Below are positions 1-9,371 of a stretch of 9,371 nucleotides of DNA, in pieces. The DNA lies in the NCBI GenBank assembly GCA_937858165.1, contig CALLZA010000280.1, forward strand, positions 1 to 9,371, written 5' to 3'. Source of the DNA: an uncultured Ardenticatenia bacterium. Lineage in GTDB: Bacteria > Chloroflexota > Anaerolineae > Promineifilales > Promineifilaceae. Every line of letters begins with the position of its first letter. The stretch's first letter is position 1. The notes under the pieces were generated by a model, which ran no database searches, had not been told where the DNA came from, and was given only the letters and a program-made list of their open reading frames with translations. The position numbers were made by a program, and so were the translations under genes.

Positions 1-1197
1 CGCGTCCTCGACGCGGTGCTTCTTCTCCTTCAGCTCGACCGCGGTCGCCGCGCCGTCGCGGATGATGGCCACGCCACCGCTCAGCTTCGCCAGGCGCTCC
101 TGCAGCTTCTCCTTGTCATAGTCGGAGGTGCTGCGGTCGATCTCGACCTTGATCTGCTCGACCCGGCCGGTGATCTCCTTCTCGTCGCCCTTGCCGTCGA
201 CGATGGTCGTGTCGTCCTTGGTGCTGACGACCTTGCCGGCGCGACCCAGATCGCTGATCTGGACCGTGTCCAGCTTGCGGCCCATCTCCTCGGTGATGAG
301 CTGGCCGCCGGTCAGGGTGGCGATGTCCTGGAGCATGGCCTTGCGGCGGTCGCCAAAGCCGGGGGCCTTGATGGCCAGGGCGTTGATCATGCCGCGCAGC
401 TTGTTGAGCACCAGCGTCGCCAGCGCCTCGCCATCCACGTCTTCGGCGATGATGACCAGGTTCTTGCGGCCGATCTGCACCAGCTTCTCCAGCACGGGGA
501 TGATGTCCTGGGCGCTGCTGATCTTCTTGTCGTGGATCAGGATGTAGGCGTCTTCGATGACGGCTTCCATCGTGTCGGCGTCGGTGATGAAGTAGGCGCT
601 AATGTAGCCGCGGTCGAACTGCATGCCCTCGACGTACTCGGTCTCGAACTCCAGCGCCTTCGACTCTTCGACGGTGATGACGCCGTCCTTGCCGACCTTG
701 TCCATGACCGTGGCGATCAGCTTGCCGATCTCCGGGTCCTGGGCCGAAATGGAGGCGACGGAGGCGATCTCCTCGAAGCTGTCGATGGAGATGGCCATGC
801 CGCGGATCTTGTTGGACAGCGCCTGGGTGCCGGCCTCGATGCCCTGCTTCAGCAGCATCGGGTTGGCCCCCGCGGCGACGTTCTTCAGCCCCTCGTGGAC
901 CATGTGCTGGGCCAGGACGGTGGCGGTGGTGGTGCCGTCGCCGGCGATGTCGTTGGTCTTGATGGCCGCTTCCTTGAACAGCTGGGCGCCCATATTCTCA
1001 TACGGGTCCTCCAGCTCGATCTCCTTGGCCACAGTCACGCCGTCGTGGGTGATGGTCGGCGCGCCGAACTTCTTGTCGATGGCCACGTTGCGCCCCTTGG
1101 GGCCGAGGGTGGTGGAGACGGCCGTCGCCACCGTGTCGATGCCGCGCTTCAGCTTGCGGCGAGCGTCTTCCGAAAAAACGAGTTGCTTCGCAGTCAT
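1..1197 (-). CDS. groL: Chaperonin GroEL (60 kDa), C-terminus beyond window
   Basis: Cytosolic ATP-driven folding chamber that works with GroES. The minus strand reads [16 protein letters not shown] and continues for exactly 399 codons to the window edge, where the frame is still open; family members are about 540-550 residues, so roughly a quarter is missing. Visible landmarks: LGPKGRNV near residue 31, Asp52 in HDG, the nucleotide-binding GDGTTT at 86-91, LLKQGIEAG in the equatorial domain, [10 protein letters not shown] in the apical domain. The last visible residues are RVEDA, so the ATP-hydrolysis aspartate (E. coli Asp398) is at bases 4-6, the penultimate visible codon. The ATG at 1197 follows a GGAGAA Shine-Dalgarno (1206-1211) by 8 bases and lies 21 bases after the groES stop, so the two genes form one operon. 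Identity is certain; completeness is not testable here. Confidence 0.98.
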
Positions 1198-1218
1198 TGC
1201 GTCAATTCTCCGTGTAGA

Positions 1219-1515
1219 TTAGTTCTCGAGGATCGCCAGAACGTCCGATTCCTTCAGGATCAGTACTTTCTTGTCGTCGATCTTGACTTCCGTGCCGCCA
1301 TACTTGGCGTAGAGGACGATGTCGCCCACTTCCACGTCCATCTTGATGCGCTTGCCGTCTTCGTCGCGGCGGCCGGGGCCGACGGCGATGACTTCGCCTT
1401 CCTGCGGCTTCTCTTTGGCCGTTTCCGGCAGCACCAGGCCGGAGGCCGTGGTGGATTCGCGCTCCTTGGGTTCGACGACCAGGCGATCGCCAAGCGGCTT
1501 GAGTTTCATAGCCAT
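1219..1515 (-). CDS. groES: Co-chaperonin GroES (10 kDa)
   Basis: The lid of the GroEL folding chamber; forms a heptameric ring in the cytosol. The 98-residue product has the normal family length and the usual landmarks: [12 protein letters not shown] at the N-terminus, the mobile loop around residues 17-33 ([18 protein letters not shown]), the [10 protein letters not shown] turn, [16 protein letters not shown] and the C-terminal [13 protein letters not shown]. The frame stays open upstream to 1611, but that extension runs through the CIRCE operator and is not GroES-like. The start at 1515 is preceded by AGGAGA with 9 bases of spacing; a second in-frame ATG at 1509 would sit too far from it. 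First gene of the operon, followed by groEL. Confidence 0.97.
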
Positions 1516-1580
1516 GTCAGACACTCTCCTATCCAAAGGTGTTTCGATTGTCAGGTTCTTGTGTTGGGAGCTTGCAGCAA

Positions 1581-1607
1581 TTAGCACTCGCATAGAAGGA
1601 GTGCTAA
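1581..1607. promoter_or_regulatory. CIRCE operator (HrcA binding site)
   Basis: Perfect inverted repeat TTAGCACTC (1581-1589), 9-base spacer, GAGTGCTAA (1599-1607), identical to the CIRCE consensus. It starts about 5 bases downstream of the predicted transcription start and lies in the 5' leader of groES. CIRCE is bound by the repressor HrcA, whose activity depends on GroEL, so the operon should be heat-induced through feedback. hrcA itself is not in the window. Confidence 0.98.
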
Positions 1608-1619
1608 TCAACGATCAGC

Positions 1620-1648
1620 ATTCTAGCAGCCGTGTTGGCGATTGTCAA
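1620..1648 (-). promoter_or_regulatory. groESL promoter, housekeeping sigma type
   Basis: On the minus strand, -35 TTGACA (1643-1648, full match), 17-base spacer, -10 TAGAAT (1620-1625, 5 of 6). Predicted start of transcription is near 1613, just upstream of CIRCE. The arrangement is the classic HrcA-repressed vegetative promoter; no alternative heat-shock sigma site is visible. Confidence 0.92.
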
Positions 1649-1686
1649 GAGGATTTTGGCAGTCTTGTGGGGGGAGTGCCAGAAAA

Positions 1687-1757
1687 GTGGTTAGTGGTTC
1701 GTGACGAGTGGTTCGTAAAGAAGAAACCAGCTACTCGTCACTTTCTTACTGGTCACT
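1687..1757. repeat. Heptamer repeat site A, head-to-head with hairpin
   Basis: On the plus strand GT recurs every 7 bases at 1687, 1694, 1701, 1708 and 1715 (units GTGGTTA, GTGGTTC, GTGACGA, GTGGTTC, GTAAAGA). Opposing units lie at 1731-1757. GTGACGAGT (1701-1709) is a perfect inverted match to ACTCGTCAC (1733-1741), and pairing continues inward for about four bases if G-U pairs are allowed. The right-hand part overlaps the last codons and stop of the TPR gene. It belongs to the same repeat family as the sites at 4748-4811 and 9119-9274. It could act as a transcription terminator for the TPR gene, although no T-run follows. Confidence 0.75.
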
Positions 1758-2966
1758 ACCCAACGTCGCCCGGCGGCACTCCAGCAGCCCTTCGTTGGCC
1801 TGGCCGACGATAAGCTCGTTGGTTGTGGCGTCGAGCACCTGCTCGAAGAGGGGCGCGGCCAGGTTGCACTCGCTCAGGTCGCGGCGGATGTAGGCCGTGG
1901 CCAGCATGTTGAAGAAGCGGGCGTTGAGGTCGGTCGCCCGGCCATAGAGGTTGACGGCCGCTTCCAGCGCCTCGACCGCGTCGGCGTAGTTGTTCTGCCG
2001 GAAGTACGCCTCGCCCAGCCGCCCCTGGGCGCGGGCCATGTTGGGGTTCAGGCGTGTCGCTTCCAGCGCGTTCTGTTCGGCCAGCGAGTCGTCGCCCAGT
2101 TGCAGGTACATATAGGCCCGGCCGTCGAACGCCTCGGCGTTGTCGGGGTCAACGGCCAGCGCGTCCTCGAAGCTGAGCAGGGCGTCGGGAATACTGCCCG
2201 TGCCGTAGTAGTTGTAGGCCAGGCCGATGTGGAGGTCGGGGTTGCTGGGGTCAGACTCCAGCCCCAGAACGTACTGCTCCATCGCCTCGGTGTAGCGCCC
2301 CTGATAGGTGAACACGGTGGCCATGTAGTAGCGGGCGATGGGGTTGTCCGGCTCGATGCGCACGGCGTCGTCGGCGAAGAGCTGCGCCTGTTCGTACTTC
2401 TCCGGGTCACCCTGCAGGATGGTGCCGCCGGCGGCGTAGGCCAGGGCGGTGGCGTTATTGGGGTTGATGTTAATCGCTTTGCGCGCTGCCTGGGCCGCGT
2501 TGGCATATTGCAGGTTGGCGGCGTTCTCGTCGCCCAGGTCGCTCAGCCGGTCGCCCTCGGCCAGATAGGCGGCGGCGGCGGCCGTCCAGACCGCGTCGTT
2601 CTCCGGGTCAAGGATCGTCGCCTGCTCGGCGCGTTCCACGGCCTTGTCGGCCTGGTTCTCGCGCACCAACAGGTCGATGACGCGAATGTAGAACTCGGGG
2701 TTTGACGGGTCGCGCTGGATGGCCTCGTTATAGAAGCCGATGGCTTCGTCGTTGGCGTCGTCGTCGCGGCTCAACTCGGCCAGCACGGCGAACTCGGTGG
2801 CCGAGCGCGTCGGTTCGGCCGTCGGCGTGGGCACGATGGCGCTGCGCACCTCCTCAGCGTTCTGAATGACGTAGAGGCTGACGGCAATGCCGAAGGTGAC
2901 GAACAGCACCAGCAGGCACGAAGGGCCGCGGCGCGGGTAGCGAGGTGGTTTGCGATTGATGATCAT
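1746..2966 (-). CDS. Membrane-anchored tetratricopeptide repeat protein
   Basis: A 406-residue protein. The N-terminus is basic (RKPPRYPRRG) followed by one hydrophobic segment at about 17-36 and a short PTPTAEPT linker, so it is probably tethered to the cytoplasmic membrane with the repeats outside. Degenerate TPR units run from about 58 to 400; clear ones include AIGFYNEAIQRDPSNPEFY (75-93), YEQAQLFADDAVRIEPDNP (191-209), YTEAMEQYVLGLESDPSNP (225-243), DALLSFEDALAVDPDNAEA (261-279) and YADAVEALEAAVNL (327-340). TPRs are protein-binding scaffolds; partner and pathway cannot be told. The ATG at 2966 precedes the only plausible anchor, but there is no Shine-Dalgarno. The last codons (GSDQ and the TAA stop) are made of heptamer repeat DNA, so the natural C-terminus may have been altered. 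Confidence 0.9.
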   Translation of the reverse strand: MIINRKPPRYPRRGPSCLLVLFVTFGIAVSLYVIQNAEEVRSAIVPTPTAEPTRSATEFAVLAELSRDDDANDEAIGFYNEAIQRDPSNPEFYIRVIDLLVRENQADKAVERAEQATILDPENDAVWTAAAAAYLAEGDRLSDLGDENAANLQYANAAQAARKAININPNNATALAYAAGGTILQGDPEKYEQAQLFADDAVRIEPDNPIARYYMATVFTYQGRYTEAMEQYVLGLESDPSNPDLHIGLAYNYYGTGSIPDALLSFEDALAVDPDNAEAFDGRAYMYLQLGDDSLAEQNALEATRLNPNMARAQGRLGEAYFRQNNYADAVEALEAAVNLYGRATDLNARFFNMLATAYIRRDLSECNLAAPLFEQVLDATTNELIVGQANEGLLECRRATLGSDQ

Positions 2967-2981
2967 GGCGATTGGCCGTTG

Positions 2982-2996
2982 CCAACGCGGCGTTGG
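2982..2996. other. Small inverted repeat in TPR gene leader
   Basis: CCAACG (2982-2987), 3-base loop, CGTTGG (2991-2996), a perfect 6-bp dyad lying between the predicted transcription start (near 3000) and the ATG of the TPR gene. It could be an operator or an RNA hairpin; short GC-rich dyads also occur by chance in such DNA. Confidence 0.35.
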
Positions 2997-3006
2997 TCAA
3001 CCGCGC

Positions 3007-3035
3007 ATCATAGCAGCGGGTGGTTCGGGCGGCAA
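3007..3035 (-). promoter_or_regulatory. Predicted promoter of TPR gene
   Basis: On the minus strand, -35 TTGCCG (3030-3035, 4 of 6), 17-base spacer, -10 TATGAT (3007-3012, 5 of 6). Transcription would start near 3000, giving a leader of about 34 bases. It lies in the 120-base gap after the glycosyltransferase, so the TPR gene can be transcribed independently. Confidence 0.7.
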
Positions 3036-3060
3036 TGGGTGCTCAGCGCGGGCTAAGAAA

Positions 3061-3151
3061 GCGCAGGGGGCAGGTGGCAATGCCGCTCATTGCTCGGCGG
3101 CCACACCCCTTTCCCCTGTGCCCTGGCTGCCCCCCTGCGCCTCTGCGCCCG
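3061..3151. repeat. C-rich low-complexity repeat at glycosyltransferase 3' end
   Basis: The plus strand has irregular CCCCTGTG / CCCCTGCG / CTCTGCG units at 3103-3151 (CTG recurring roughly every 8 bases), with a related G-rich patch at 3061-3077. The repeat overlaps the last ~20 codons of the glycosyltransferase and the gap behind it. It is a different sequence from the 7-base repeats elsewhere in the window. Confidence 0.5.
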
Positions 3152-4094
3152 CCCGCAGCCGCCACCACACCCCACTCGGATAGCCGAGCATCTTGGCTAC
3201 GTCGCCTACCAGACGGATGATGGGGATGAGGGCGAAGGCGCGGGCGCGGGCCGGCGGCCGCCAGCCCCAGGTGTTGGCCCACAGCCGCTCGGCCGGGCGG
3301 CGCGAATAGGCGCCGACGCCCAGCAGCAGCAGCAGCCAGCCGATGAACCGCTCGCGCCAGATGGCGCGTAGGATGAGCGGCAGCCCGACCAGGTAGGTTA
3401 GATAGCGGACGGCGTGGCGGCGCGGCCAGAGGTTGGCTTTGCCGTCGCCGCGGGCATAGGCGCGATACTGGCGGTAGAAGGCGCGCAGGCTGGAGCGCGG
3501 CCGGAAGTAGGCCACCGCGCCGGGAGCGAAGGCAAATGGGCCGAAGCGCTCGCGCAGTGCTTGGTCGAACACCAGGTCTTCGCTGTGTTCCAACCACTCC
3601 GGATAGCCGCCGACGGCCGCCCAAGCGCTCTTGCGAAAGGCGACGGAGCGGCTGGAGGGCAGGAACTGCTGCGGGTCGATCTCGCGCCGCGCGGGCAGCA
3701 CCGTCGCGCCCATGACGACCTCGAAGTCGGTGAACGGGTCGGCCTCGAACCAACCGCCGACGGCCTGCACCGCCTCGTCGGCGAACGGGGCCAGCAGCTC
3801 TTCCAGCCAGGTGGGCGAGAGGACGACGCCGGCGTCGGTGGCGGCGATGATGTCGCCCGTGGCCGCGGCGATGGCCCGGTTGCGCCCCTGGCTGATGTTG
3901 CTGCCTGGCGCGACGATGACCCGCAGCGGCAGCCGGCGGGTGTACTCGTCCAGAATGGCCGGCGTGGCATCGACCGAGCCGCCGTCGCAGATGACGACTT
4001 CGTCCGGCGGGCGGGTCTGGTCGAGGATGGAGTCGAGCAGCGGCCGCAGCGCCTCCCCTTCGTTCTTGACGGTAGCAACGATCGAGACCTTCAT
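3087..4094 (-). CDS. Glycosyltransferase family 2, membrane-associated
   Basis: Predicted inverting GT-A glycosyltransferase of 335 residues that moves a sugar from a nucleotide donor onto a lipid or polysaccharide acceptor; the actual substrates are unknown. Seen: MKVSIVATVKNEGEALRPLL at the start, nucleotide-binding DGGSVDAT (37-44), a TDAG at 86-89 in the DXD position, the acceptor-side SEDLVFD (171-177, candidate base in ED), and Q-R-ARGD around 209-217. Hydrophobic segments follow at about 231-246, 250-263 and 286-303. The start at 4094 is chosen because the Rossmann strand begins there; the frame continues to 4169, but that stretch is not family-like. No Shine-Dalgarno is visible. Residues after ~313 (AGAEAQGGSQGTGERG) are low-complexity and encoded by C-rich repeat DNA. 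It is divergent from the HD-domain gene. Confidence 0.92.
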   Translation of the reverse strand: MKVSIVATVKNEGEALRPLLDSILDQTRPPDEVVICDGGSVDATPAILDEYTRRLPLRVIVAPGSNISQGRNRAIAAATGDIIAATDAGVVLSPTWLEELLAPFADEAVQAVGGWFEADPFTDFEVVMGATVLPARREIDPQQFLPSSRSVAFRKSAWAAVGGYPEWLEHSEDLVFDQALRERFGPFAFAPGAVAYFRPRSSLRAFYRQYRAYARGDGKANLWPRRHAVRYLTYLVGLPLILRAIWRERFIGWLLLLLGVGAYSRRPAERLWANTWGWRPPARARAFALIPIIRLVGDVAKMLGYPSGVWWRLRAGAEAQGGSQGTGERGVAAEQ

Positions 4095-4197
4095 GTTACT
4101 ATCTAGGGTAAGAAACACTGTCCGTTGCGATTGGTTGCACACGCCGGCCAAATTGCCGCGGCGCGTCATGTCGCGCTCAGGAACGCCTCATTCTCTC

Positions 4198-4743
4198 ATG
4201 GACGTAGACCGCTTGCTGGAGTTGCTGCTGCACGGGAATCAGTTGAAGCGCACCGCGCGCACCGGGTGGGTGCAGCGCGGCGTGCCGCTGCCGGAAAACG
4301 TCGCCGCCCACACCTTCGGGGTGGTCTATGCCACGCTGCTGCTGGCCGACCTGGTGGAGCAGCCGATCGATATGGCCGCGGCGCTGGCCATGGCAGCGCT
4401 CCACGACCTGCCGGAGGGGCTGACGACCGACATCCCCACGCCCGCCTGGCGCTTTCTGCCCAGCGGGGCCAAGACGAGCGCCGAGCGGCAGGCGATGGAA
4501 CAGATCGCCGGCGAGACGCCCACCGGCCGCCGCCTGTTGGCGTGGTGGGAGGAGCTGTTGGCCAACGAGACGGCCGAGGCGCAACTGGTTCATGATGCCG
4601 ACAAGCTGGATCAGTACCTTCAGGCGGTGGTCTATGAGCAGCAGACCGGCAACCGGTTGTTGCAGGAGTTCTGGCTGGTGGCCCACCGCTTCCACTATCC
4701 GCAGGCGCAGGCGGTGTATGACGAGTTGCGGCGGAGAAGATAG
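4198..4743 (+). CDS. HD-domain hydrolase, YfbR/HDDC2-like 5'-deoxynucleotidase
   Basis: A 181-residue soluble protein of the HD superfamily. It resembles E. coli YfbR, which removes phosphate from deoxynucleoside 5'-monophosphates and so acts in nucleotide pool salvage. Metal and catalytic positions are all present: ENVAAHT (His38), ALHDLPEGLTTDIPTP (His69, Asp70, Glu73, Asp78; compare HDASEVLTGDLPTP in YfbR), and HDADKLDQYL (Asp135). Length is near the family's ~180-200. The frame is open far upstream (to 3631) only because it runs antisense through the glycosyltransferase. ATG 4198 gives the family-typical N-terminus. An in-frame ATG at 4168 would add ten residues; AGGAA at 4179-4183 is rather far from 4198, so the choice is not absolute. 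Exact substrate is inferred. Confidence 0.88.
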   Translation: MDVDRLLELLLHGNQLKRTARTGWVQRGVPLPENVAAHTFGVVYATLLLADLVEQPIDMAAALAMAALHDLPEGLTTDIPTPAWRFLPSGAKTSAERQAMEQIAGETPTGRRLLAWWEELLANETAEAQLVHDADKLDQYLQAVVYEQQTGNRLLQEFWLVAHRFHYPQAQAVYDELRRRR

Positions 4744-4747
4744 TTGC

Positions 4748-4811
4748 CAGTGTCCAGTGTTCAGTGTCCAGTGAAGCCCACTGACAACTGAATACTGGAT
4801 ACTGAGTACTG
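4748..4811. repeat. Heptamer repeat site B, head-to-head long hairpin
   Basis: CAGT recurs exactly every 7 bases at 4748, 4755, 4762 and 4769; its complement ACTG recurs every 7 bases at 4780, 4787, 4794, 4801 and 4808. The two halves share one axis. Bases 4748-4765 pair with 4787-4804 as an 18-bp stem with two G-U pairs, then a 3x3 internal loop, then CAGTG/CACTG (4769-4773 with 4779-4783) closing a 5-base loop. It starts 4 bases after the HD-gene stop and could double as its terminator, though no T-run follows. Confidence 0.85.
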
Positions 4812-4822
4812 CCCGACTCCCA

Positions 4823-4851
4823 TTGGCAACCGCCGCCCCTTCTGGCAAAAT
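4823..4851 (+). promoter_or_regulatory. Predicted promoter of LysM-M23 gene
   Basis: -35 TTGGCA (4823-4828, 5 of 6), 17-base spacer, -10 CAAAAT (4846-4851, 4 of 6). The start would be near 4858, only about 5 bases before the ATG at 4864, implying a nearly leaderless mRNA. This agrees with the absence of a Shine-Dalgarno there. The weak -10 makes this tentative. Confidence 0.5.
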
Positions 4852-4863
4852 ACAACGCGGCTT

Positions 4864-6381
4864 ATGCAGAAACAACACCGCCTTCTACCCTTTGTGCTGG
4901 TCGCGCTGGTCTTCTTGGCCCTGGCGCAGCCGATTGCCCTGATGGCCCAGACGGAGCCGACGCCGACGCTGGCCCAGCCGGCGGCCACGTCCGATGCGGC
5001 GTCTACGCCTGACCCTGCGGCGGCCACGCCCGGCGAGGCCACGGCCACGCCCGACCCCGCCGCGCCGCCCGTGCCCCGCGTCCACGTCGTTGTCGAGGGG
5101 GAGAACCTGACCACCATTGCCGCCGACTACGGCGTGACGGTCGAGGACATTCTGGCCATCAACAACCTGGCCAACGGCGACCTGCTGCAACTGGGGCAGG
5201 AGTTGATCATCCCCGGCGGCACGGGCGAGGCCATTGCCACCGTCTACACCATCGGCGCGGGTGACACCCTGGCCGAGGTGGCGGCCATCTTCAACACGAC
5301 GCTGGCCGACGTGGTGGCCACCAACCGCCTCGTTGCCGCCGACCTGCCGCTCATCATCGGCCAGACGGTGCCGGTGGTCAGCCGCACCGGCTCGGCCGCG
5401 CCCCGCCCGGCGACGGGCCGCCCCTATCTGGTGGCCACCGGCGACACGCTGCTGACCGTGGCCGCGGCCCACAACCTGACCCCGGCGGCGCTGGCCGCGG
5501 CCAACGGGCTGACAAGCCCCACCCTCTTCCCCGGCCAACGGCTGCGCATCCCCGACGAGACGGCCGTCTATCGCCACCTGCCCGAAGGGTGGCTGGATGT
5601 GCGGGTCTCTCCGGCCAACCCCGGCCAGGGGGCAACCGTCGCTATCAGCGTCGCCAACCTGCTGCCGGGCACGCCGGCCGGGCGTCTGGGCGAGCAGGCG
5701 TTGCACTTCGCGCCGGCGGCCGATGGGTACGTCGCCCTCGTTGGCCTGGACGCCTTCGCCGAGCCGGGGCTGTATGACCTGGAGATCAGCGGCGGCGACG
5801 AGCGCGGCCTGTGGCAGCCGCTGCGCGCGGGGCTGACGGTGACGGCCACGGCGTATGACACACAGTACATCACCGTGGGCGAGGCGCTGGACGGGCTGCT
5901 CGACCCGGCCGTTCGGGCCACGGAGGACGCGTTTCTGCACGACATCTTCGCCGTCTTCGACGAGACGCAGCACTGGGAGGGGGTCTTCACCTACCCGGTG
6001 ACGACGACCGTCATCTCGGCCGGCTATGGCGGTCGCCGCTCCTATAACGACGGGCCGATCGAGATCTACCACACCGGCCTCGACATCGCCGCGCCCCAGG
6101 GAGAGACGGTCAGCGCCCCGGCGGCCGGCGTTGTGGCCTTCAGCGACGTGGTGGAGCTGCGCGGCGGCATCATCATCGTCGACCACGGCCGCGGCGTGAT
6201 GACCGGCTATTACCACCTGTCGGAGCGGCTGGTCAGTGCGGGCGATGCCGTGGCTGCCGGGCAGCCCCTCGGCCGCGTCGGCTCTACCGGCTTGTCGAGC
6301 GGCCCGCACCTGCACTGGGATCTGCGCGTTATGGGTGTGCCGGTCGATCCGTTGCCCTGGATAGAGCGGACATTTCCATAG
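4864..6381 (+). CDS. Secreted LysM / M23 metallopeptidase (murein hydrolase type)
   Basis: A 505-residue envelope protein. A signal peptide (1-29, ending near LMAQ) precedes a Pro/Thr/Ala linker (30-71). Three LysM peptidoglycan-binding repeats follow at about 73-117, 127-170 and 187-230, each with a GD/GE-(N/T)L start and a GQ-LIIP or GQRLRIP-type end. Then comes a ~90-residue beta-rich spacer (240-330) of unknown type. The M23/LytM domain (~375-500) has HTGLD (His403, Asp407), YYHL (His451) and GPHLHWD (His482, His484), so the zinc ligands and catalytic histidines look intact and the enzyme should cut peptide cross-links in the wall. Whether it is an active hydrolase or a regulator of one is unknown. 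ATG 4864 opens the signal peptide; no Shine-Dalgarno. The TAG stop overlaps an AGACCTGGCAGG palindrome. Confidence 0.93.
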   Translation: MQKQHRLLPFVLVALVFLALAQPIALMAQTEPTPTLAQPAATSDAASTPDPAAATPGEATATPDPAAPPVPRVHVVVEGENLTTIAADYGVTVEDILAINNLANGDLLQLGQELIIPGGTGEAIATVYTIGAGDTLAEVAAIFNTTLADVVATNRLVAADLPLIIGQTVPVVSRTGSAAPRPATGRPYLVATGDTLLTVAAAHNLTPAALAAANGLTSPTLFPGQRLRIPDETAVYRHLPEGWLDVRVSPANPGQGATVAISVANLLPGTPAGRLGEQALHFAPAADGYVALVGLDAFAEPGLYDLEISGGDERGLWQPLRAGLTVTATAYDTQYITVGEALDGLLDPAVRATEDAFLHDIFAVFDETQHWEGVFTYPVTTTVISAGYGGRRSYNDGPIEIYHTGLDIAAPQGETVSAPAAGVVAFSDVVELRGGIIIVDHGRGVMTGYYHLSERLVSAGDAVAAGQPLGRVGSTGLSSGPHLHWDLRVMGVPVDPLPWIERTFP

Positions 6382-6393
6382 ACCTGGCAGGTC
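6380..6393. repeat. AGACCTGRCAGG palindrome, copy 1
   Basis: GACCTG (6381-6386) and CAGGTC (6388-6393) form a 6-bp inverted repeat around one base. It begins inside the TAG stop of the M23 gene. The same core, AGACCTG-R-CAGG, recurs at 8895-8906 and, inverted, at 8954-8965, so it looks like a dispersed element rather than a one-off hairpin. Confidence 0.6.
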
Positions 6394-6405
6394 GTTTCCT
6401 TAAGG

Positions 6406-6434
6406 TTGTCGGTGGCGGCGCGAACTGTTATAAT
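6406..6434 (+). promoter_or_regulatory. Promoter of the 519-aa gene / operon
   Basis: -35 TTGTCG (6406-6411, 4 of 6), 17-base spacer, -10 TATAAT (6429-6434, perfect). Transcription would start near 6441, leaving a leader of about 48 bases that ends in a strong Shine-Dalgarno (AGGAG, 6478-6482). Confidence 0.85.
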
Positions 6435-6488
6435 GACGCGGTTCAGGACCACTCCACATCGACTAGGCCTCTGCCACAGGAGTTCGCG

Positions 6489-8048
6489 GTGAATCAGACT
6501 CAGATTCAGTCCACGGAGCAGTGGGAATCGGGTTTCTCGCTGTCCGATACTGACCTCGAGCAAATCTACAACCACTTTCTCGAAACCGAAAAACCCCAGA
6601 CCGTCGCGGAACTGGCCGGACTTGTTATTCGCTCGCGTGTGCGGGAGCAGGCGGCCGAAGTGCGCCGGATCATCTCCGGCAGCACCGTCTACCAGCCGCG
6701 GCGCAGCTATGCCGTGGGCGAGGAAGTGATCTTCCCGGCGCTGCGGCTGGCCAAGGGGCAGGTGACGCAGGTGCGGCCGGGGTATAACCCCGAATACGGC
6801 GACTTCAACGTCATCACTGTTAACCTCAAGGGCAAGCCACGCGATTTCGTGGCCGACTATACGCCGAGCCACGCGCTGAACGACAGCGACGGCGGTGTGC
6901 TGACCGAGCAGATGGCCGGCGACGCCGAAGCGATTCAGGCGGCGCACGGCGCGACGGTGGCGGCGCGGATTGGTGCGTCACTGGCCGGACGAGATGACTT
7001 CGTCAACATCGGCGAAGAGTGGTTCGTCAAGTCGCTCATGGCCGACGTCAACATCGGCCACCTTCATCTGACCGAGGCCATTCTCGACATGACCGACGGG
7101 GGGCCGTTGACGACGGCTGAGATTCTGCCGCAACTTGAACTGGACCCGGGCGTCGATGCCCAGGTGCAGGCGTTCTCGCTGAACCACCATCTGTTGCGCG
7201 ACGGCCGCTTCGACGATGTCTCGCCGGCCGGCGAAGCGCGCTGGTTCCTGCGGCGCATGGAGCCGGACGCCGTGCAGACGACGCCCGACCGGCTGGTCTA
7301 TCAGCCCATCGCCTATGACCGCTCGCTGCTCTCGCCGCAGCAGATCGCGCTGGAGCAGGAGCTGGACGACGAGTGGTCCGACCTGACGCCGGCCGCGCCG
7401 AGCGACACGGTTGTTCTGGCGCTGTCCTACCCACACCGTTGGGCGGGCACGCTGCCGATTAACGCGCGCACGCGGGCGCTGTTCGACGCCGGGCGCTCGC
7501 CCCGGCGTCGCGTGGTTTTCATCGACGACGAGACGAATGAGTCGATTGCCGGTTGGGTGGTGGCCGAGGGGCGCTACGTCCACGGTCTGTCGAACTGGTA
7601 TAAGGACAACGCCATTCCCGTCGGCGGCTTCCTGCATCTGCGACCGGGGCCGGAGCCGGGCACGATCCTGCTGGGCTACGACCGGCGGCGGGCGCAACGC
7701 GAGTGGGTGCGCCTGGGGGCGGTGAAGGATAACAAGCTCCAGTTCGAGTTGATGCGGCGGGCCATTCCCTGTGGCTATGACGATCTGCTGATCGTCGGCA
7801 CGGATGTGGTGGCGGCGGTGGACGCCCACGCCAAGCGCGCCACGTCGCTGAAGCTGTCGGTCGGCGCGCTGTTGAGCGAGGTCTTCCCGTCGCTGGCCGG
7901 GCTGACGCCGCAGAACAGTGTCCACGCCAAGACGCTTTATAGCGCCATCAACATGCTGCGGCGCGTGCCGCCGGGGCCGATTTTCGCCGAGCTGATGCGC
8001 AATCCGGCCTTCAAGGGTGTCGGCGACCACTACTGGCAGCAAGAGTAA
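6489..8048 (+). CDS. Hypothetical multidomain protein with HARE-HTH-like winged helix
   Basis: I do not recognise a named family for this 519-residue protein. It starts at GTG 6489, supported by AGGAG 6 bases upstream. No signal peptide or membrane segment. Visible parts: a helical N-terminal segment (20-66); a beta-rich region with GEEVIFPALRLAKGQV and RPGYNPEYGDFNVI (77-109); a winged-helix-like segment (189-256) with GGPLTTAEILPQL and LNHHLLRDGRFDDV, whose pattern resembles RNA polymerase delta / HARE-HTH domains (helix, helix, then RDGRF and a W-L wing); a beta-rich region (305-408) with LPINARTRALFDAG, FIDDETNESIAGWVV and GLSNWYKDNAIPVGGFLHL; and a helical C-terminus (415-519) with AKTLYSAINMLRRVPPGPIF. 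The domain calls are inference. Probably cytosolic and nucleic-acid binding, and co-transcribed with the next gene. Confidence 0.8.
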   Translation: MNQTQIQSTEQWESGFSLSDTDLEQIYNHFLETEKPQTVAELAGLVIRSRVREQAAEVRRIISGSTVYQPRRSYAVGEEVIFPALRLAKGQVTQVRPGYNPEYGDFNVITVNLKGKPRDFVADYTPSHALNDSDGGVLTEQMAGDAEAIQAAHGATVAARIGASLAGRDDFVNIGEEWFVKSLMADVNIGHLHLTEAILDMTDGGPLTTAEILPQLELDPGVDAQVQAFSLNHHLLRDGRFDDVSPAGEARWFLRRMEPDAVQTTPDRLVYQPIAYDRSLLSPQQIALEQELDDEWSDLTPAAPSDTVVLALSYPHRWAGTLPINARTRALFDAGRSPRRRVVFIDDETNESIAGWVVAEGRYVHGLSNWYKDNAIPVGGFLHLRPGPEPGTILLGYDRRRAQREWVRLGAVKDNKLQFELMRRAIPCGYDDLLIVGTDVVAAVDAHAKRATSLKLSVGALLSEVFPSLAGLTPQNSVHAKTLYSAINMLRRVPPGPIFAELMRNPAFKGVGDHYWQQE

Positions 8049-8054
8049 TCGTCC

Positions 8055-8094
8055 GGTGCCGGCCGTTGCCCGACTGCGGGCGGGAGCCGGCGCT
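8055..8094. other. Intercistronic hairpin
   Basis: Bases 8055-8063 and 8086-8094 pair (GCCGGC core plus G-U extensions). After a 2x2 mismatch, 8066-8072 pairs with 8077-8083, with GCCCG/CGGGC closing an ACTG loop. All pairs share one axis. It occupies most of the 68-base gap between the 519-aa and 149-aa genes and ends 7 bases before the Shine-Dalgarno of the latter. It could lower downstream expression, stabilise the upstream message, or be a dispersed palindromic element. Confidence 0.7.
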
Positions 8095-8116
8095 TACAAC
8101 GAGGAGTTAGATAGGC

Positions 8117-8566
8117 TTGTCCAGCTATCCGCGGCCAACAATCAAGACGACTCACCTGCGACGGGTGACGCCGGAGACGCGCTTCTACATCGACTACGGT
8201 TGGTGGGATGAGGGGCATCTCGACCTGCGAACCTACTTGCTGGCCCGGCTGTCGCTGGGCATCGAGGGCGGCTCGGAGCTGCCGGCGGAGCGGGTTGACC
8301 TCGTCGACGCCAAGACGGGCGAGGTGCGGCAGGTGGATGCGTTCCAATACCTCGTTCAGAACTACTTTAGCCGCCACGGGAACGACATGGCGATGCAAGG
8401 CTCCATCGTCGATGCCGTCTTCAGCGTGCTGCTGGCTAACGGCAACCAGCCGATGACGATCAGCGAGATCGCCGAGCGCGTCCAGCGGCCGAGCGAGCTG
8501 CTGATGAAGACGTTCGGCGGGTCGCAGATCTATCATGGGATTCGGCCGTTGTTCGACGAAGAGTAG
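8117..8566 (+). CDS. Hypothetical protein with predicted C-terminal HTH
   Basis: A 149-residue protein I cannot name. The start is TTG at 8117: it is the first start after an in-frame TAG (8108-8110) and lies 10 bases after AGGAG (8102-8106). The N-terminal part has a basic patch (RPTIKTTHLRRVTPETRF, 6-23) leading into FYIDYGWWDEGHLDLRTYL (23-41), which reads like a conserved core. A short DLVDAKTGEVRQVD motif follows (61-74). The C-terminal part (95-143), VDAVFSVLLANGNQPMTISEIAERVQRPSELL followed by GGSQIYHGIRP, fits a winged-helix or similar HTH with a hydrophobic wing. No signal peptide or membrane segment. It follows the 519-aa gene by 68 bases on the same strand with no visible promoter between, so the two are probably co-expressed. 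Function unknown. Confidence 0.82.
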   Translation: MSSYPRPTIKTTHLRRVTPETRFYIDYGWWDEGHLDLRTYLLARLSLGIEGGSELPAERVDLVDAKTGEVRQVDAFQYLVQNYFSRHGNDMAMQGSIVDAVFSVLLANGNQPMTISEIAERVQRPSELLMKTFGGSQIYHGIRPLFDEE

Positions 8567-8641
8567 GTTCGTCGTCCAGCGCCTGAGCGCGTTCTTCAGC
8601 CGAGCAGAGCGCCGCGCGCGCTAAGGCGCTGGCCGACGAAC
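8567..8641. repeat. 25-bp imperfect palindrome filling the intergenic gap
   Basis: Bases 8567-8591 are the reverse complement of 8617-8641 at 23 of 25 positions (mismatches at 8575/8633 and 8585/8623), around a 25-base loop. The left arm begins at the first base after the TAG of the 149-aa gene. The right arm ends at the base before the ATG of the MoaD-like gene, so the element is the whole gap. No T-run follows, so a standard intrinsic terminator is unlikely. Confidence 0.9.
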
Positions 8642-8902
8642 ATGAACGTCGACGTAAAGCTCTACGGCACTCTACGGCGCTATCGCCCGGCCGGCGCGCC
8701 GGGCGAGGGCCACACCCCCTTTGTGATCGCGCTGCCGCCGGCGCTGACCGTGGCCGATCTTCTGGCCGTGTTGAACATCCCCGACGGGCTGGCCAGCGCC
8801 GCGGCGGTCAACGATGAAGCGGTGGAGATCGACTACCCACTGCGCGACGGCGACCGGGTTAGCCTGTTTCCGCCTTCGGCCGGTGGAGATGCACAGACCT
8901 GA
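8642..8902 (+). CDS. MoaD/ThiS-family ubiquitin-like sulfur carrier with C-terminal extension
   Basis: An 86-residue beta-grasp protein. MNVDVKLYGTLRRYR is the typical first strand and loop of MoaD-like carriers, LTVADLLAVLNIP is the helix after strand 2, and DGDRVSLFPPSAGG (69-82) is the typical end. Relatives are adenylated on the terminal glycine and converted to a thiocarboxylate that supplies sulfur for molybdopterin, thiamine, cysteine or tRNA thiolation; which one applies here cannot be told. Here the Gly-Gly (81-82) is not terminal: DAQT follows, encoded by the start of a palindromic repeat that also provides the TGA stop. As translated, the protein would need trimming before activation. 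No Shine-Dalgarno precedes the ATG, which abuts a 25-bp palindrome. No MoeB/ThiF, MoaE or JAMM-protease gene is in the window. Confidence 0.85.
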   Translation: MNVDVKLYGTLRRYRPAGAPGEGHTPFVIALPPALTVADLLAVLNIPDGLASAAAVNDEAVEIDYPLRDGDRVSLFPPSAGGDAQT

Positions 8903-8965
8903 CAGGTAGGTGGCCAGGCGCTCTCCGGCAGGAGCAAGCCGTGGGGCCGCCTCCCTGTCAGGTCT
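8895..8965. repeat. AGACCTGRCAGG element, copies 2 and 3 (inverted pair)
   Basis: AGACCTGACAGG at 8895-8906 and its exact reverse complement CCTGTCAGGTCT at 8954-8965, separated by 47 bases that contain a smaller CTCC-GGCA-GGAG hairpin (8923-8934). The left copy contains the TGA stop of the MoaD-like gene. It may serve as a terminator-like hairpin, but no T-run follows. The core matches the copy at the stop of the M23 gene. Confidence 0.75.
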
Positions 8966-8990
8966 TGGTCTGTTCTGGGGGAGGGCCTGG

Positions 8991-9019
8991 TTGACGCCGG
9001 TGGCCCCAGCCCTTAGAAT
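8991..9019 (+). promoter_or_regulatory. Promoter of tRNA-Arg
   Basis: -35 TTGACG (8991-8996, 5 of 6), 17-base spacer, -10 TAGAAT (9014-9019, 5 of 6). Transcription would begin near 9026, about 13 bases before the mature tRNA 5' end. The same -10 hexamer and spacing are used by the groESL promoter. Confidence 0.85.
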
Positions 9020-9038
9020 TGGTTTTGAGGGACGCTCG

Positions 9039-9112
9039 GCCCCCGTAGCTCAATTGGACAGAGCATCGGCCTTCTAAGCCGAATGTTGCAGGTTCGAGCC
9101 CTGCCGGGGGCA
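9039..9112 (+). tRNA. tRNA-Arg (anticodon TCT)
   Basis: A complete cloverleaf can be drawn. The acceptor arm is GCCCCCG (9039-9045) with CGGGGGC (9105-9111) and discriminator A (9112). The D arm is GCTC/GAGC. The anticodon arm is TCGGC-CTTCTAA-GCCGA, placing TCT at positions 34-36. The T arm is GCAGG-TTCGAGC-CCTGC. CCA is not encoded. It reads AGA (and AGG by wobble) arginine codons. It stands alone, with no second tRNA visible. Confidence 0.96.
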
Positions 9113-9118
9113 TTTATC

Positions 9119-9274
9119 AATTAGGAATTAGGAATTGGGAATTCAGAGCGCTGACCGCTGACTGCTGACCGCTGACTGCTGACCGCTGACTGCTGACCGG
9201 TGACCACTGACCACTAACCGCTGACCACTAACCGCTGACCACTAACCGCTGACCGCTGACCACTGACTACTGAC
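9119..9274. repeat. Heptamer repeat site C, tandem array
   Basis: It opens with four AT-rich 7-base units (AATTAGG, AATTAGG, AATTGGG, AATTCAG; 9119-9146). After a 2-base step come 18 uninterrupted 7-base units at 9149-9274. These are variants of YRCTGAC: CGCTGAC (7 copies), TGCTGAC (3), CACTAAC (3), CACTGAC (2), and one each of CGGTGAC and TACTGAC make up most of the array. The units resemble the reverse complement of site A units such as GTGGTTA. The array runs to within one base of adapter sequence, so its true length is unknown. Nothing coding is seen between the tRNA and the contig end. Confidence 0.93.
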
Positions 9275-9275
9275 C

Positions 9276-9371
9276 CTGTCTCTTATACACATCTCCGAGC
9301 CCACGAGACCGTACTAGATATCGTATGCCGTCTTCTGCTTGACAAAAACAACACCATACACGAAAACTACA
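9276..9371 (+). other. Illumina Nextera adapter read-through (not genomic)
   Basis: Bases 9276-9294 are the 19-bp Tn5 mosaic end CTGTCTCTTATACACATCT. Bases 9295-9309 are CCGAGCCCACGAGAC, the Nextera read-2 adapter. Bases 9310-9317, CGTACTAG, sit in the i7 index position and match the index I remember as N702. Bases 9318-9341 match the P7 flow-cell sequence (ending TATGCCGTCTTCTGCTTG) with one mismatch at 9320. Bases 9342-9371 are A/C-rich noise typical after an adapter. The organism's sequence ends at about 9275. Confidence 0.98.

Follow-up and report, generated by a model that had tools for sequence, protein, structure and literature searches.

Heptanucleotide tandem repeats are known from heterocystous cyanobacteria as STRR (short tandemly repeated) sequences, which are intergenic, vary between strains and may be akin to the repeats described here. 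Other short palindromic extragenic repeats, i.e. the repetitive extragenic palindrome (REP) elements with their REP-associated tyrosine transposases (RAYTs) and the miniature inverted-repeat transposable elements (MITEs), move in trans and have many copies at gene 3' ends; we know of no heptad arms among either group. We report on heptad repeats, mostly arranged as hairpins, at three sites between genes in a 9,371-nucleotide stretch of an uncultured Ardenticatenia bacterium (Chloroflexota; GenBank assembly GCA_937858165.1, contig CALLZA010000280.1, positions 1 to 9,371), hereafter the window, which is contig C280 of a draft genome that totals 4.45 Mb in 1043 contigs and is 79% complete. The window's own genome is referred to as G000 and the eight genomes of its genus as G000-G007; among these, G001 is near-complete and was sampled over 1.26 Mb. 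Earlier reports on heptads are piecemeal (Cyanobacteria, Xanthomonas, Beggiatoaceae), and what is added here is a single architecture, a strict arm order, preferred outer ends and one unit that, among the matches listed, occurs in genomes labelled from at least about 13 phyla. We see about an even chance that these repeats represent a superfamily of non-autonomous, MITE-like DNA hairpins (approximately 40-130 bp, built from 7-base units) copied in trans to new places.

According to the passages of Rehm et al. (2015, PMC4692102) drawn on here, the GGGAATC heptads of Xanthomonas form inverted pairs (70 and 75) near or overlapping stop codons, and both these and the GGGGA(C/T)T heptads of Nostoc, where inverted pairs are few, are mostly intergenic, rare between divergent genes, not associated with mobile elements and able to form G-quadruplexes, preferably with four units. 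The repeats studied here are likewise tandem 7-base units, enriched outside genes (85 of 118 G001 elements lie in gaps) and scarce between divergent genes, with 45 facing pairs and with 51 of 93 gene-end distances not above 10 bp. The heptads of Xanthomonas are the closest published case, and since inverted pairs near stop codons occur there, this kind of architecture is not novel. Unlike the G-rich Xanthomonas and Nostoc heptads, none of our seven unit types is of the GGGNATC type, and the reversed-order control, the shared ends and the cross-phylum hairpin given here were not found in those passages. The TAACTGA repeats, as covered in the parts of MacGregor (2015, PMC4679880) used here, occur in Beggiatoaceae, Cyanobacteria and Bacteroidetes, are intergenic and mixed with related heptads, and comprise 169 sets, one of which is inverted; in the main genome most of them directly precede start codons, the corresponding gaps are empty in relatives and no mechanism is known. 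Our repeats share with them the 7-base intergenic arrays, the mixing of related heptads, the distant phyla and the empty gaps, and differ from these direct repeats in their units and in that the hairpin form and a position at gene 3' ends dominate (gene starts within 10 bp, 15/77). The register A/G-A/G-T-N-A/G-N-G/C accommodates both GGGAATC (as AATCGGG) and TAACTGA (as AGTTATC); by our own estimate about one in five random heptads fits this register in some rotation or strand, and the common register is therefore only a lead. In our searches of the open-licence literature we found no account of such hairpins in Chloroflexota, and a literal search with six unit strings listed four papers, whose titles do not concern bacterial repeats.

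In a full element, two arms of units that run in complementary orientations flank a short loop. The units in G001 are of seven types, drawn up after inspection of its runs (AATTASG, AATGACG, AGTGGNC, RGTRGCG, AGGTGCT, GGACGAC and GGACCAC), and these cover 153 of the 154 period-7 runs within one mismatch. In a first pass over G001, 33 of 36 adjacent arm pairs were inverted, every one in a single order, and when shorter arms were admitted all 45 facing pairs had a single order, with none reversed, and seven further pairs were direct. The same order was found for all 94 facing pairs at 119 cross-phylum and viral loci, which were chosen because they contain such a hairpin (0 reversed, 37 direct). 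Moreover, the AATTASG hairpin gave 74 matches per strand across 40 genomes, located in five of them (nested matches counted), and the reversed-order hairpin gave none in the same 40. Single arms follow this polarity less strictly than pairs (38/56, p = 0.01). The order of heptad arms is governed by the register of the unit and not by purine content: a purine-rich order holds for 40/41 period-7 and 13/13 period-8 pairs in G001 and for 96/98 cross-phylum period-7 pairs, and it is violated by 3/5 G000 pairs and by 4/9 period-9 and 3/3 period-12 G001 pairs. The outer ends are also preferred, since among 112 cross-phylum elements (length 39-129, median 70.5) the first A of AATTASG marks the outer end 69 and 64 times, and of 72 outer ends in G001, placed in one register over all types, 29 occupy phase 0 and 20 phase 6; those of the RGTRGCG type are scattered over the phases. 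Mixed-type facing pairs account for 9/45, five of which combine GGACGAC with GGACCAC, two types that resemble each other, and four of these five are repeats inside one gene. One called gene (L095:12453-13564) holds four heptad hairpins with a spacing of approximately 342 bases, like a repeated protein stretch, and arrays nested within other arrays are visible by eye.

The elements of the window and their parts, together with the neighbouring tRNA gene, are:
1686-1757, element 1: imperfect hairpin with AGTGGTT/CGTGACG-like units and their complements (sequence, fold, weak period 7)
4742-4810, element 2: hairpin with AGTGTCC/AGTGTTC units and their complements (sequence, period 7, fold)
9119-9275, element 3: AATTAGG arm, short core and about 18 complementary-type units (truncated at 9275 by adapter)
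9119-9143, plus strand: AATTASG-type left arm of element 3 (Tandem Repeats Finder, period 7)
9144-9153: core CAGAGCGCTG of element 3, between both arms (sequence)
9149-9275, minus strand: long right-type array of element 3 (Tandem Repeats Finder, period 7, 18.1 copies)
9039-9112, plus strand: tRNA-Arg (TCT) gene, with element 3 after its 3' end (ARAGORN)

Sites 2 and 3 are period-7 arrays; site 1 is not strictly periodic but shows a strong fold-back. Specifically, the lag-7 identity is 0.67 at site 2 and 0.78 at site 3, compared to at most 0.25 and 0.30, respectively, at the other lags from 2 to 13, and at both sites the best period-7 run was equalled in none of 1000 Markov shuffles. For site 1 the lag-7 identity is 0.46 vs 0.38 at other lags and the best run was equalled in 1/1000 shuffles; it has no Tandem Repeats Finder entry and is under the threshold of the window-wide scan for runs of periods 2-14, in which only period 7 and its multiple 14 gave a run above threshold. 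The RNA fold z-scores are -4.65 for site 1 and -7.80 for site 2, and site 3, taken over its first 75 or 85 bases, is without a strong fold (+0.63 and +1.61, respectively). The strict or near-strict 7-base period that the first-pass annotation had assigned to all three sites is thus borne out at sites 2 and 3 and is weak at site 1, and the head-to-head copies that it described are confirmed at sites 1 and 2. Its proposal of one family holds as regards the common architecture and not as regards the unit, given at least seven unit types, two of which are combined at site 3. This mixed element has right-type units CTGACCG, CTGACTG and CACTAAC, which are of AGTGGTC type when read on the minus strand; its core CAGAGCGCTG is also present in the loops of some AATTASG hairpins in its own genome and in G001, and G001 carries an AATTASG left arm at the position matching the left arm of element 3. 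With respect to genes, element 1 separates the control region of groES from the TPR gene, whose stop codon (1746-1748, minus strand) it includes, the start of element 2 falls within the TAG stop codon of the HD-domain gene (4741-4743), and element 3 begins six bases past tRNA-Arg.

The first-pass annotation had also suggested a dispersed and changing family, and this is supported. In G000 the pattern ACTGACN x3 (≤3 mismatches, overlapping matches counted) has 294 matches vs 35 for the reversed pattern. With ≤2 mismatches it is matched in 21/40 genomes, G000 included, and the number of matches in the eight genomes of the genus varies between 1 and 314, with 314 in G001, 48 in G004 (98% complete) and 2 in G005 (97% complete). 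We class G000, G001, G003, G004, G014 and G017 as repeat-rich and G002, G005 and G007 as repeat-poor. The reversed control is commoner in some genomes, e.g. G020 with 154 vs 6 for the natural pattern, and other heptads are therefore present there. Of the periods 4-21 tested in the G001 sample, period 7 is the commonest with 154 runs, followed by its multiple 14 (100), period 8 (60), the multiple 21 (51) and periods 9 (40), 16 (38), 6 (33), 18 (24), 12 (22), 15 (17), 19 (7) and 20 (1); periods 4, 5, 10, 11 and 13 give 0-2 runs each. The period-8 arrays of G001, GCAGGGGA (e.g. L070:12684-12750 and L060:874-913), have the same arm order as the heptads in 13/13 facing pairs, and 14 of 25 adjoin gene ends within 10 bp; the period-9 arrays, CRCAGATTA (e.g. 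L040:2787-2860), are inverted too (nine pairs), and period-6 ATCGCT-like arrays also occur.

Presence also differs at the level of single gaps, where arrays are lacking in same-genus relatives, as the first-pass annotation had anticipated. The gap between the TPR and groES genes (site 1) and that between the HD and LysM genes (site 2) are without a heptad array in all six relatives compared (G001, G003, G004, G005, G006 and G007; at site 2 G002 is not covered), and the gap after tRNA-Arg (site 3) is array-free in six of seven (G002-G007), G001 having it filled by an AATTASG/AATGACG hairpin. At site 1 the flanks of G003 match the window on both sides, its gap is approximately 63 bp shorter by eye, and it has TAGTGAGCC in place of the first unit of the window, TAGTGACC; at site 2 it has CTGAATACTGAGCAC, a scrap, at the place of the last units. 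Judged by eye, the site 1 gap has period-8-like repeats in G001 and other short repeats in G006 and G007. Comparing these sequences, a gain of arrays would be the simpler reading. In another genus, G014 has an unrelated GGACGAC-type array directly after the equivalent HD stop codon, and the gene after its HD gene (L113) also has a separate heptad hairpin with TAGTGCG units at the stop codon.

To place the elements relative to genes we used our own gene calls for G001 (1084 genes, 88% coding). Of 118 merged period-7 elements, 67 are in tandem gaps, 13 in convergent and five in divergent gaps (34.5 by random placement), 29 are inside called genes and four are at edges. Distances of at most 10 bp were found for 51/93 gene ends vs 6% under random placement, and for 15/77 gene starts vs 5.5%. 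Stop-proximal elements account for 22/26 in gaps <60 bp and for 3/13 in tandem gaps with ≥150 bp left over, i.e. stop proximity is concentrated in short gaps and tight gaps therefore account for much of it. The residual length of tandem gaps is similar without and with an element (median 78 and 87 bp, respectively), and we therefore consider the elements to be added sequence. In the cross-phylum set, counted with no random control, the distance is at most 10 bp for 56/99 open reading frame (ORF) ends and 27/81 ORF starts; divergent gaps hold 14 of the elements and ORFs contain 10; 77 of the 224 element ends have a clear nearby ORF end, within 6 bp for 48 of them. Finally, when 60 of 63 sampled stretches were scanned, an AATTASG-type element was found 4-5 bases after 2/15 tRNAs.

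A scan of Genome Taxonomy Database (GTDB) genomes for the AATTASG hairpin matched at least 112 stretches, and for so long a hairpin pattern we estimate the number of chance matches to be well below one. Among the matches listed it occurs in genomes labelled from at least about 13 phyla, a grouping that we made from record titles; the phylum names rest on the titles of 80 of these stretches. The titles are Planctomycetota, Anaerolineae and other Chloroflexi, Bacteroidetes (Prevotellaceae, Chitinophaga, Lunatibacter), Selenomonadaceae, Clostridiales, Patescibacteria, Planktothrix, Pseudanabaena, Endomicrobium, Gemmatimonadota, Acidobacteria, Gammaproteobacteria, Latescibacteria, Nitrospinota and Deltaproteobacteria. 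Most of the records are metagenome bins, for which wrong binning is possible, and Chitinophaga, Lunatibacter and Pseudanabaena are named strains. A plasmid search with the array of element 3 gave no match. Seven viral contigs (L239-L245) comprise six stretches with an AATTASG hairpin and one with an AGTGGWC hairpin, and two of them contain more than one hairpin.

A linked reverse transcriptase or transposase, which the first-pass annotation had raised as a possible source of spread, did not emerge as a requirement. The RVT_1 profile has no match in G000, G001, G002, G004 and G007, where a divergent reverse transcriptase outside the model is possible, and it is present in 11/24 genomes searched, the repeat-poor G005 among them. 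The Y1 transposase (PF01797) was matched in 33/40 genomes, including G000, G001 and G003, and not in the repeat carrier G004; the integron integrase (TIGR02249) gave nothing above cut-off in G000-G007 and is present in 3/24 genomes searched; and Ku was found in none of 40 genomes. These negatives are limited by the reach of the models and by genome completeness (71-99% for most, 68% for G007). Because each of the four families is absent from some repeat-rich genome, it is unlikely that any of them is required in this genus, and a different enzyme is possible. Hence the hairpins differ from REP/RAYT elements in that G004 carries repeats with no match to a Y1 (RAYT-type) transposase, and from integron cassette attC sites in that no integron integrase is above cut-off in G000-G007. 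They also differ from MITEs, as flanking direct repeats of 2-9 bp, i.e. target duplications, are no commoner around 111 elements than in shuffled pairs. Insertion into older palindromes was considered and rejected, as the sequences outside the arms show hardly any complementarity, with at least 8/10 complementary flank bases in 1/111 elements vs 0.5 expected.

If the hairpins are copied in trans, to which we give an even chance, a hairpin would be copied into an intergenic gap by an activity acting in trans and would persist mainly between the stop codon and the control region of the next gene, and slippage and exchange with other arrays would rewrite it unit by unit, such that the arms diverge and elements of mixed type, as at window site 3, appear. 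The evidence that we count for a copied hairpin is the fixed order, the preferred ends, the lack of target duplication, the shared loops, the empty sites, the similar residual length of gaps with and without elements, and the many phyla. In G000 and G001 taken together, 189/496 loop pairs have a common 6-mer, whereas shuffles give 24 and at most 41. A single Prevotellaceae assembly has a common 7-mer in 89/91 pairs. Both results argue that whole hairpins were copied in these genomes. Several observations weigh against this reading. In eleven other assemblies with at least two listed loci a 7-mer is common to 2/79 loop pairs, and whole-hairpin copying is therefore not general; these loops, the independent arms and the mixed elements together argue for additional rewriting or addition of individual arms. 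The arms are no more alike within than between hairpins (18.7 vs 18.5 of 21, p = 0.14; 33 tested out of 36 hairpins with arms of the same type), many arms stand alone (56), no transposase among the Y1, RVT_1, integron integrase and Ku families searched is tied to the hairpins, most MITEs leave a target duplication, and arrays may have been lost at the compared gaps, most of all at the tRNA gap common to G000 and G001. The same arm likeness led us to reject the idea that one arm is generally a fold-back copy of its partner; AGTGGNC alone tends the opposite way (19.6 vs 18.1), and at the C/G position of AATTASG the mirror agreement is 70/113 vs 63.1 expected (p = 0.066). Growth in place, by local slippage and template switching near gene ends with units copied between arrays and nothing mobile, would account for arms that vary independently, for loops that are site-specific in most assemblies, and for TAGTGAGCC (site 1) and CTGAATACTGAGCAC (site 2) of G003 as possible seeds or scraps. 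We regard it as rather unlikely, since free slippage would yield many units, yet seven types fit 153/154 G001 runs, the AATTASG unit recurs across phyla, the outer phase is preferred, and loops are shared in G000/G001 and in one Prevotellaceae assembly.

The proximity to stops (51/93 gene-end distances ≤10 bp), the shortage in divergent gaps (5 vs 34.5 expected) and the strong folds at sites 1 and 2 would suit hairpins that act as terminators or protectors of mRNA 3' ends and are kept by selection. This we find improbable: a bias towards folding of the sense RNA is absent in 47 tandem period-7 hairpins (p = 0.87), for 20 period-8 hairpins the sense RNA is the worse folder (p = 0.019), G-U pairs number 146 in sense vs 170 in antisense, many elements are in tight tandem gaps, 29/118 are inside called genes, and G005 (97% complete) has 2 pattern matches vs 314 in G001. 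Selection on the sense RNA as such was rejected on the same period-7 and period-8 hairpins. Eukaryotic interstitial telomeric repeats have a fixed strand polarity, and their head-to-head fusion yields an equal arm order. Correspondingly, a telomerase-like activity might add the same unit strand to both 3' ends of a break, followed by head-to-head joining, and if a hairpin is the scar of two such capped ends, the order is fixed, the arm types may differ and the loops are arbitrary. Such end extension predicts the facing-arm order, independent arms, the lack of target duplication, mixed elements (9/45 pairs) and single arms of the same polarity (38/56, p = 0.01). A bacterial precedent, in the parts of the DRT10 report relied on here (PMC12632851), is the synthesis of tandem-repeat DNA from an RNA template, with 9-nt repeats in one system and other lengths in others; that product is plasmid- or cell-borne complementary DNA, and the repeats here are chromosomal arrays with RVT_1 unmatched in G001. 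In addition, RVT_1 is unmatched in G000, Ku is found in none of 40 genomes, loops are shared in some genomes, the outer phase is preferred and the flanks have no clear priming match to the unit, and we therefore hold end-extension scars to be very improbable. That many phyla carry a system adding one-polarity repeats to free 3' ends, a counterpart of telomere healing, is likewise a long shot. These repeats raise the question of how a 70-bp hairpin would be copied when neither a transposase nor a reverse transcriptase nor a target duplication is evident, and this can be tested in the genus, in which copy number varies by two orders of magnitude between species.

The window further encodes groES, a TPR protein, a glycosyltransferase, an HD-domain protein, a LysM/M23 peptidase, a ThiS-family protein and two proteins with no Pfam match, as well as groEL, the identity of which was read from its own sequence. 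At 6489-8566 there is a neighbouring gene pair (519 and 149 aa), neither with a Pfam match. Upstream of groES, TTAGCACTC-N9-GAGTGCTAA (1581-1607) fits what we take to be a CIRCE operator, and element 1 is placed upstream of it. The final 96 bases of the window (9276-9371) are an assembly artefact at the contig end, with approximately 66 bases that presumably are Illumina Nextera adapter with index, followed by about 30 bases of unclear origin; site 3 ends at 9275 because the adapter begins at 9276. The first 19 bases of this segment recur in eight other contigs of the same genome, i.e. in 9/32 contigs including that of the window as counted in the fetched contig parts, and in L146.

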